From: Halosimplex halophilum
GTDB lineage: Archaea; Halobacteriota; Halobacteria; Halobacteriales; Haloarculaceae
DNA: 64,000 nt
Assembly: GCF_004698125.1 (NCBI RefSeq)
Contig: NZ_SRHV01000005.1
Coordinates: 248,001 to 312,000 of the forward strand
Direction of reading: 5' to 3'
The stretch's first letter is position 1. Each line of letters opens with the position of its first letter. The notes under the pieces are model-generated. The model was not told the DNA's origin, made no database searches, and was given only the letters and a program-made list of their open reading frames with translations. The translations under genes and the position numbers were made by a program. Shown piece by piece: positions 18,541 to 21,436 of the stretch.

Positions 18541-18605
18541 CCGTTCCTCGAGATCGGCCCTCTCGCTCGCACTGCTACAGTTTCCGGCACGTTCGCGGGC
18601 AACCA

Positions 18606-18629
18606 GGAATAAATCACATATCGCGATAC
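18606..18629 (-). repeat. 24-bp inverted repeat, right copy
   Basis: Reverse complement of the repeat at 15935-15958 with two mismatches. Both copies point inward, enclosing the Bat-type regulator and both hydrolases (2.7 kb). Confidence 0.7.
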
Positions 18630-18732
18630 GGATTGATGGTGAGTCGGCGATACGCGGTCGACGCCCGGCTGTCGTCTGTCTTTTGGGTTGCCGAACGCTT
18701 CAAATGTGACCGCTCGAAAACAGTCTGTATCC

Positions 18733-19908
18733 GTGCCACGACCGGAGACCATCGAACGGATACGGGAAGCGGAGACCGAAGCGGAGCGAATCCTTGAGGA
18801 CGCCGAGGCCGACCGCGAGGAGATGCTCGAAGCGGCCTCGGATCGGGCGGACAGAATCCGGGCGGAGATCCGCCAGCGGGCCGAACGCCGGAGCGAGGAG
18901 CGACTCGCCGAGGCCCGCACGGAGATCGAGGCCAAACGGGAAGCTATCCTCGAAGCGGGTCGGGCGGAGCGGAGAACGCTCGAAGAGCGAGCGACGGCGC
19001 GACGGGAGGATGTCGTCGGGTTCGTCGTCGATCAGGTGGCGGCCGCGATACGAGACGATGCCGACTACAGTCGCGGAGATATTCTCAGCGGGATGGACCT
19101 GTCAAATCGAACGTTCGATGATGTGAGATGGTTCTACACGGACTGTTCGGGTGCCGATCTCACGGACGCGACACTCTCGGGAAGCGCCCTGGGCTGTGAC
19201 TTCGGGACGACGACGCTCACCGGGAGCGATCTCTCCGGGGCCAATTTTCGTTCGTGTGACTTCTCCGGAGCCGATCTCAGCGAGAGCGACCTGTCGGACG
19301 CGGTCCTGTCTTGGGCCTCCTTCGAAGACGCCTCGGCACCGGATGTCGACTTGAGGGGAGCGACGCTCACGGGCGCGGCGGGCGTTCGGGCCGACTTCAG
19401 CGGCGCGACGGCTGAACGGACCGTGGCCAAGCGAGCCGACTTCCGGGATGCCATTCTCGCAGATGGCGATTGGTCGCGGGCGTATCTGCCGAAATCGAAC
19501 TTATCGGGTGTCGATGCGGCCGATGTCGACTTCCACGACTCCGCCCTCCGCGGTGCGGACCTGTCCGGTGCCGACCTGTCCGGGGTCGACCTCTCGGGGG
19601 CGACACTACAGGGGGCGGACCTCGCTGGCGCGACGCTGACTGGTGCCGATCTTACCCACGCATCGCTCATCGAGGCCGACCTGACCGGGGCGAACCTCCG
19701 GGGGGCGGACTGTACGAGTACGCTCCTTCGGCGCGCGACGCTCCGCGAAGCGACGCTCGCCGACGTGACGTTCGCCGCCGGATACGACAGCCAGGGGACG
19801 AAGCGGCGTCCGTCGCTCCGGGGCGCCGACCTGACGGATGCAACACTCGACGGCACGGATCTATCGGCGGTCGAGACGGCTGACGCGACGTTCTCCGAAA
19901 CGCGGTGA
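18733..19908 (+). CDS. AhaH-like peripheral-stalk coiled coil fused to pentapeptide-repeat domain
   Basis: The protein has 391 residues from the GTG at 18733, chosen because it yields PRPETIERIREAE, the characteristic beginning of haloarchaeal A-type ATP synthase subunit H. Residues 1 to about 108 are an uninterrupted Glu/Arg/Ala-rich right-length coiled coil ending in VVGFVVDQVAAAIRD, closely resembling whole AhaH (about 105-110 residues). Residues about 118-388 then switch to pentapeptide repeats of the A-D/N-L-x-x type (for example GADLSGADLSGVDLSGATL), which fold as a right-handed quadrilateral beta-helix. I know of no such fusion. No other ATP synthase gene is near. The FtsZ-like reading frame follows 100 bp downstream on the same strand. 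Confidence 0.8.
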   Translation: MPRPETIERIREAETEAERILEDAEADREEMLEAASDRADRIRAEIRQRAERRSEERLAEARTEIEAKREAILEAGRAERRTLEERATARREDVVGFVVDQVAAAIRDDADYSRGDILSGMDLSNRTFDDVRWFYTDCSGADLTDATLSGSALGCDFGTTTLTGSDLSGANFRSCDFSGADLSESDLSDAVLSWASFEDASAPDVDLRGATLTGAAGVRADFSGATAERTVAKRADFRDAILADGDWSRAYLPKSNLSGVDAADVDFHDSALRGADLSGADLSGVDLSGATLQGADLAGATLTGADLTHASLIEADLTGANLRGADCTSTLLRRATLREATLADVTFAAGYDSQGTKRRPSLRGADLTDATLDGTDLSAVETADATFSETR

Positions 19909-20008: not shown

Positions 20009-21382
20009 ATGCCGAACGGACGCAGGCCCCATCATCAAGTGGCCTCTCTCACGGCCGTGGGTGTCGGCGAACGGGGTGTACGCGCCCTGGAGCGGTTCGC
20101 CGAGGAGTCGAGCGATGACGACCAGGTCACGGCTCGGTTCATCTGCGTGGACACGGCGGAAACGGCCGACTCGAGGACGGACCATTTCCAGTTCTGCCGG
20201 CTCGATGCTCCGGACTCCGGAGGGTCCGAGGCCGACTCCACGCCGCCGTACGCGGACTCGGTGAAGGCGACGGCGACGGACGGCCCGGGTCCGGCGCCGC
20301 TCGTCCGTCGCCGTCTCGACTCCCGCGCGAACTTCCTCCCGCTGTTCGAGCGTATCGAGTCGACGATGACGGACGGCGCGACACCGGACGCCGAGTGGAC
20401 GCGCTCTCCGGGCCACCTCAATCTGCTCGTCGGCGACCTGTCGGATCCGGCCGTGCGCGGCGTGGTGCCACTCGTCGCGAAGATGCTCGACGACGGGGCC
20501 GACGCCCTGTCGATGCCGACGCTCACGGGGGGGATGTTGCTCGCTCCGGTGGGCGCGGTCGCCGACGGCGAATCGATAGCTCCGTGATACCGCCGGACGT
20601 ACGTGGGCCTCCGGGAGGCGACGGCGCTCCTGACCGACCACGAGCCGAACGCCGAGCGCTCGCTGTCGGTCCGGCCCGGTGTCGTTCCGAACGATCGGAC
20701 GGAACTCGACCTCACGGAGCGACTGTTCGACCTGTTCGGGCTCGTCGGATACGATCCCGACCGCGAGTCTTCGACCGAGGTGTCGGCCTCGGTCGCGTCC
20801 GCTCTACGGGTGTTCGTGGACCTGCGGTTGACGATCACGAACGGCGGCGTCGAGGGATTCCCGGGGTCCGGAACGCCGGCGTCGACGACGAGAGGTGGCA
20901 GGGCGGCCGAGCGCGCGGATCCCGGAATGACATTCGTCTCGTGGATCGAGAGCCACCGGCGGGAGTCGCCGTCGCCGGACGACAGCGAGCGTCAGCTACC
21001 GGTCAAGTACGGACGTGCGCTCGCACCCGTCCCTGAAGATACTGCAGGCCACTGTGCCATCGGCGTATATCGTCTGGAAGAGGACCAAGCGGACAACAGG
21101 GGGTGGTCCGCCACGCGCGGAGACGAGCTGTCGGTCGAGACGCCCGGTCACTCGCTCGTCGAGGGAGACGAAGGGGTCGAACTGTGGCCGGCTTCATTCG
21201 CGTCTCGCGAAGAGCGTCACGTCTTCGTCCACCCCGACGTGGGCGCGTTCGACGTTTCGCCGTACGCCCGACTGCACGACCGATACGCTGACGACCTCCG
21301 CTCGCTCCTCGTCGGACTGGATATGTCGCCGCTTGCGTATCCCGAACTGGTTTCGATGGACGGAGACACGACAGCGCCGTGA
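20009..21382 (+). pseudogene. Divergent FtsZ/tubulin-like gene split by an in-frame TGA
   Basis: A single frame of 458 codons is interrupted only by TGA at 20585-20587 (codon 193). The first part (192 residues, ATG at 20009) and the second (a GTG at 20603 would give 259 residues) lie in the same phase, 15 bp apart, and the second has no convincing start. The first part resembles the N-terminal GTPase half of FtsZ: SLTAVGVGERGVRALERF aligns with the GxGGAGxN region, ARFICVDTAE with the FIAxNTD strand, and VVPLVAKMLDDGADALSMPT with the helix and strand after the T4 loop. The glycine-rich T4 loop itself (GGGTGTG) is replaced by DLSDPAVRG, so GTP binding is doubtful. Either a nonsense-inactivated gene or two separate polypeptides; family assignment is tentative. 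Confidence 0.5.
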
Positions 21383-21436
21383 CCGGAGAGGACACCCCGG
21401 ACCGGCCAATACCGTCGCGAGCGCGCAGCGGACTAG

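Follow-up and report, generated by a model that had tools for sequence, protein, structure and literature searches.

A degenerate FtsZl1 (Tubulin_2)-like gene in Halosimplex halophilum that lacks the GTP-binding loop and the coil, most likely a young pseudogene

We analysed a 64,000-nucleotide stretch of the Halosimplex halophilum genome (4.47 Mb, 7 contigs), hereafter the window, and find in it a reading frame that is best explained as a shortened, coil-less and GTP-incompetent derivative of the FtsZl1 (Tubulin_2) proteins, which kept its coding character for a while before a TGA recently disabled it; we put the probability of this reading at roughly 0.6. The window copy is most likely a young pseudogene of a little-studied family. 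Translation now stops at the TGA, within the nucleotide-binding domain, so that the gene is most likely dead and its present product would be a 192-residue N-terminal fragment at most; its value is therefore mainly comparative.

Table 1. Positions of the features discussed (window numbering, except for the last line)
Feature	Position	Strand	Remarks
Inserted segment	18670..21410 (approximate ends, roughly 2.7 kb)	.	Between alpha/beta-hydrolase gene and cobyrinate-synthase-like gene
Pentapeptide-repeat protein with N-terminal coiled-coil-like segment	18733..19908	+	Pfam Pentapeptide E 2.4e-53; alternative start 18688
Degenerate FtsZl1/Tubulin_2-like frame	20009-21382	+	ATG 20009 to TGA 21380-21382; 458 codons including the final stop
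N-terminal part of the frame	20009..20584	+	192 codons
T1-like GVGERG	20060..20077	+	Residues 18-23; three glycines of GxGxxG retained (alignment)
T4 loop position	20435..20461	+	DLSDPAVRG (residues 143-151) aligned with SLGGGTGSG
Internal TGA	20585-20587	+	Codon 193; sole interruption of the frame
C-terminal part of the same frame	20588..21379	+	264 codons; profile match continues to residue 259
Tail YxxLHxxY...AYPEL	21251..21361	+	Suggestive likeness to the C-terminal ends of FtsZl1 relatives
L160, T4-altered FtsZl1 paralogue	G048:C1:88171-89040		Flanked by L154 and L159; L162 also covers this region

An earlier note on this DNA had described one 458-codon frame broken by a single TGA at codon 193, and this is confirmed: both sides of the stop are coding-like in this frame, with GC by codon position of 0.72/0.54/0.85 in the N-terminal and 0.72/0.51/0.79 in the C-terminal part. 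The openness of the frame is not relied on, because in this GC-rich DNA it is overlapped by chance frames of more than 250 aa; the argument rests on homology that continues through the stop. There is no frameshift in 457 codons, the TGA being the only disabling change, and this, together with a coding signal that is much alike before and after the stop, argues that the stop is either recent or an error; we infer that the gene died recently. The third-position GC lies below the 0.91–0.96 of seven nearby host genes, and that of the pentapeptide-repeat gene upstream is likewise low (0.75). The proposal that codon 193 was ancestrally Trp (TGG) is unconfirmed, the residue aligned with it varying among relatives (mostly Tyr, Phe or His), so that the site says nothing firm about the original codon.

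Sequence comparison supports the assignment of the frame to the tubulin superfamily, with FtsZl1 (Pfam Tubulin_2) as its nearest family, not FtsZ or CetZ. Comparison of the joined halves with a tubulin-superfamily profile had been set as a check beforehand, and a match was found: a profile made from 16 haloarchaeal relatives with the query left out gives the read-through frame 31.2 bits (E 7.7e-9 within this set), the match covering residues 16–259 and so crossing the TGA, as against 18.3 bits for the N-terminal part alone and 7.4 bits for the C-terminal part alone. The best of 1000 shuffles reached 5.2 bits, and the best of a second set of 1000 reached 2.8 bits. When the read-through was compared by phmmer with all ORFs of 20 fetched loci, a small set, Tubulin_2 proteins took ranks 1–9 (best E 3.2e-6), and Pfam labels all three such relatives tested, the best match included, as Tubulin_2. 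The query keeps 57 of 78 hydrophobic columns in a leave-one-out count (5000 shuffles: mean 28.8, maximum 44), on an alignment that contained the query and so favours matches; the 16 relatives keep 81–99%. The superfamily assignment of the earlier note stands; the family is FtsZl1/Tubulin_2 and not CetZ, which the note had named as an example. Profiles from 30 FtsZ loci and from 10 CetZ-like ones fail to tell the frame from shuffled sequence, scoring −1.9 bits (76 of 1000 shuffles equally good) and 2.2 bits (5 of 1000), respectively; the second-tier PF00091 matches are these CetZ-like loci, which we take to be CetZ.

Single-sequence searches reach less far. With the N-terminal part, 7 of 146 family genomes matched, six besides the query's own and all at E 0.0026–0.0094; two of these six later proved to hold Tubulin_2 genes, namely G131:C83, the best Tubulin_2 gene in a search of the class (E 1.3e-24), and a near-twin in G116. 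Locus L004 held an unrelated long ORF only, and L008 showed unrelated ORFs only because its Tubulin_2 frame extends past the locus. BLAST-like searches found the query alone, both with the C-terminal part (1 of 146 family genomes) and with the read-through (1 of 391 class genomes). Viral contigs gave no match with the C-terminal part or the profile, plasmids none with the C-terminal part, and a wider scan of genome contigs gave a single weak match, in Paracoccus. Scans of the frame with Pfam (E up to 10, the Tubulin_2 (PF13809) and Tubulin models included), NCBIfam and PADLOC returned nothing, and the single match among solved structures, at E 0.38, was taken as chance. AlphaFold models made without an alignment, from the single sequence, have mean pLDDT values of 32.7 and 34.7, too low for either to be used.

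The ancestor of the window protein would have retained the tubulin nucleotide-binding core pattern and lost the glycine loop T4 and most of the RQRPVGRY motif. The GTP-binding loop GGGTG(S/T)G is absent from the window copy, where SDPAVRG aligns, which bears out the earlier claim that DLSDPAVRG stands in its place; it is recognisable in 35 of 36 other non-redundant members, variants such as SGGTAAG or GGGIGGG being allowed. Among strictly conserved columns the query keeps 22 of 43, in an alignment that contains it and favours matches, compared with 63–98% for the relatives, and the losses take in all of G145–S150 as well as most of RQRPVGRY. The central coiled region is likely to have been deleted in the ancestor too: the longest proline-free stretch past residue 260, which is a proxy for a coil and not a coiled-coil predictor, is 36 residues in the window copy and 68–188 in 30 of the 31 relatives measured, the remaining one, L160, having 49. 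It is probable that the ancestor neither bound nor used GTP. A tubulin-like scaffold with a GTP pocket that could not close and with no coil would therefore not have cycled as is presumed for FtsZl1 proteins, and a role as a passive, non-cycling partner or scaffold is plausible. The tail of the window copy (YARLHDRYADD...AYPEL) is suggestive of kinship with the end of FtsZl1 relatives, the C-terminal part scoring 7.7 bits against a C-terminal profile, compared with 7.1 bits for the best of 2000 shuffles and 8.2 bits for one unrelated decoy ORF.

The tubulin-like gene follows the pentapeptide-repeat gene, and the two fill a 2.9 kb gap between the hydrolase gene and the cobyrinate-synthase-like gene, the latter a cobalamin-type gene by eye. 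In five of seven congeners these neighbours lie about 180–270 bp apart and the insert is absent, the hydrolase itself being partly deleted in one of the five (G089); of the other two, G090 carries a different insert and in G095 the contig ends there. On the left, homology to two congeners stops near 18668 and, on the right, homology to three resumes near 21384–21412, and the insert has a GC content of 64–70% compared with 73–76% in its surroundings. The tubulin-like gene probably travelled, or was inserted, with the pentapeptide-repeat/coiled-coil gene between the hydrolase and cobalamin genes. A search for target-site or terminal repeats at the insert ends gave a 9-base match at most, taken as chance. 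By eye, a motif resembling ATAAAYnnnATnYCGCGATAnRAAA lies in the spacer that separates the hydrolase gene from the cobyrinate-synthase-like gene (18605–18640), and seems common, with deviations, to the window and the six congeners in which the gap was read. At the same intergenic spot in G090 (L024:3700-5170), a 303-residue frame was seen by eye, with a twin-arginine-like leader and a possible metal motif of the HALMNP type.

The start of the pentapeptide-repeat gene was picked by coding score, and none of the 145 other family genomes yields a match to the gene at E up to 1e-30. Residues 22–104 of its protein match NCBIfam AhaH with E 5.7e-8, below the cut-off of that model; read from the alternative start (18688–19908), its N-terminus resembles archaeal ATP synthase subunit H or a coiled-coil stalk, an unusual fusion. 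No pentapeptide runs were found near relatives of the tubulin-like gene in the neighbourhoods scanned, a run near the Halobellus limi gene having been set aside as unrelated, by eye, to that of the window.

The main rival explanation, to which we allow a modest chance, is that the TGA stems from an error in sequencing or assembly and that the frame encodes a live, 457-residue, GTP-independent tubulin-like protein, acting as a non-cycling partner or scaffold beside its pentapeptide neighbour. That a single change disables the 457 codons, that the two sides of the stop are about equally coding-like and that the core hydrophobic pattern is retained are all consistent with this, as is L160, which is T4-altered and nearly coil-less and is nevertheless an intact frame beside two normal paralogues. 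However, the losses among strictly conserved residues extend to many positions beyond T4 (21 of 43 in all), and the window copy, which has no supported position in the tree, sits on a very long end branch (4.14 changes per column); these losses and the branch fit relaxed selection. In our preferred reading of a recently killed gene, coding constraint would have held for some time, with no frameshift and the core pattern kept, before the single TGA arose.

There is a slight chance that the TGA is real and that the protein works as two assembling chains, the second from GTG 20603, which is the first start codon past the stop and only five codons downstream. Against this, the relatives are single genes, and homology crosses the stop within the nucleotide-binding domain, which is an unlikely point at which to split the fold. 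The earlier view that the gene was originally one reading frame agrees with the relatives, which are uninterrupted save for the apparently frameshifted L127/L137 and the contig-end fragment L128. Chance resemblance of a GC-rich frame with GxGxxG (for example, a dinucleotide-binding Rossmann protein) lacking tubulin ancestry is very unlikely: the silence of the Pfam and NCBIfam models at E up to 10 and the weak early matches, L004 holding only an unrelated ORF, would fit it, whereas the profile score set against its 1000 shuffles (at most 5.2 bits), the colinearity over 244 residues and the nine leading ranks of Tubulin_2 proteins argue otherwise. Decoding of the TGA as an amino acid, by selenocysteine insertion or programmed readthrough, deserves scarcely any credence, since the frame is open and coding-like past the stop but the genome has no tRNA-Sec above the Rfam gathering score (best 40.6 versus 47 bits), on which ground selenocysteine was rejected, and the relatives have a variable, mostly aromatic or His residue at this site and no catalytic Cys.

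Among 391 class genomes, 22 contain relatives of the frame at E 1e-18 or better, at 31 places altogether, a count that includes the aligned relatives and the window copy, whose matches are built in; at the family level, E 1e-8 is reached in 12 of 146 genomes, and in none of the seven congeners. An orthologue with the same short form was not found. One FtsZl1 gene (L137/L127, G050:C5:13340-14104) seems to carry a frameshift that separates a 377-residue N-terminal part from the coil and tail, which continue in a different frame. Of the 12 neighbourhoods compared, 10 (L087, L088, L089, L090, L091, L092, L093, L094, L096 and L105) have near the Tubulin_2 gene a related protein of ~150–420 residues, in which a signal, a membrane segment and an ectodomain rich in beta structure were seen by eye; Pfam gave nothing above cut-off for the two tested. 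At the window locus, none of the operon partners looked for with FtsZl1 (vWA protein, kinase, GTPase or membrane partner) was found. Makarova and Koonin 2010 (PMC2875224) treat FtsZl1 as a diverged FtsZ-like family, and the group bears the Tubulin_2 domain according to PMC9871819. Degenerate members of the superfamily are not new as such, because Makarova and Koonin (PMC2875224) describe certain archaeal FtsZ paralogues without motifs required for function. Our literature searches found no published report of T4-less or coil-less FtsZl1 proteins, and none of pseudo-GTPase tubulins in archaea.

L160 offers a second case of combined loss. It is the middle member of a three-gene FtsZl1 tandem in which both flanking paralogues have normal loops; its T4 reads DDGLGSG in place of GGGTGSG, its coil segment has 46 residues compared with 263 and 274 in the two neighbours, and it is an intact open frame of 764 residues. 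Among 32 proteins measured (31 relatives and the window copy), the two with an altered T4 are the two without a long coil; the chance of the same two of 32 being picked twice is 1 in 496, an exact count that ignores relatedness. Loss of the GTP loop and the coil together in only these two degenerate members suggests that the two form one working unit. The tree joins L160 to one of its tandem neighbours (99/90) and to the pair of them (100/100), apart from the window copy. Because L160 is placed with its neighbours and no position of the window copy is supported, the losses look to have arisen in two separate degeneration events, the tree being unable to prove the case of the window copy. A broader and doubtful proposal, to which we give a small chance, is that haloarchaeal FtsZl1 repeatedly yields GTP-incompetent, coil-less proteins, of which two cases on different branches were met here, and that these would serve intact paralogues as non-cycling regulators or caps; the window version would stand alone, perhaps with a coil supplied by its pentapeptide/coiled-coil neighbour, and the TGA would be an error or very recent.

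Compared with known systems, the window frame would share its superfamily with the CetZ and FtsZ proteins of haloarchaea by way of FtsZl1. With the FtsZl1/Tubulin_2 (PF13809) proteins of haloarchaea, which carry the NCBI product name 'tubulin-like doman-containing protein' (e.g. Halobellus limi WP_103993216.1), it has in common the colinear nucleotide-binding domain, the T1-like GxGxxG, the pattern around the T4 position and possibly the C-terminal YxxLH...AYPEL tail. It differs from them in having no T4 loop, little of RQRPVGRY and a deleted coil, in its length (457 versus about 760–980 residues), in the internal TGA and in the absence of a membrane-anchored partner gene alongside. L160 resembles the window copy in its altered T4 and reduced coil segment; unlike it, L160 is uninterrupted, still has the GSG portion of T4 as well as its C-terminal domain, and lies within a tandem. 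Together, the two are natural variants with no GTP loop and no coil with which the function of FtsZl1 may be probed.
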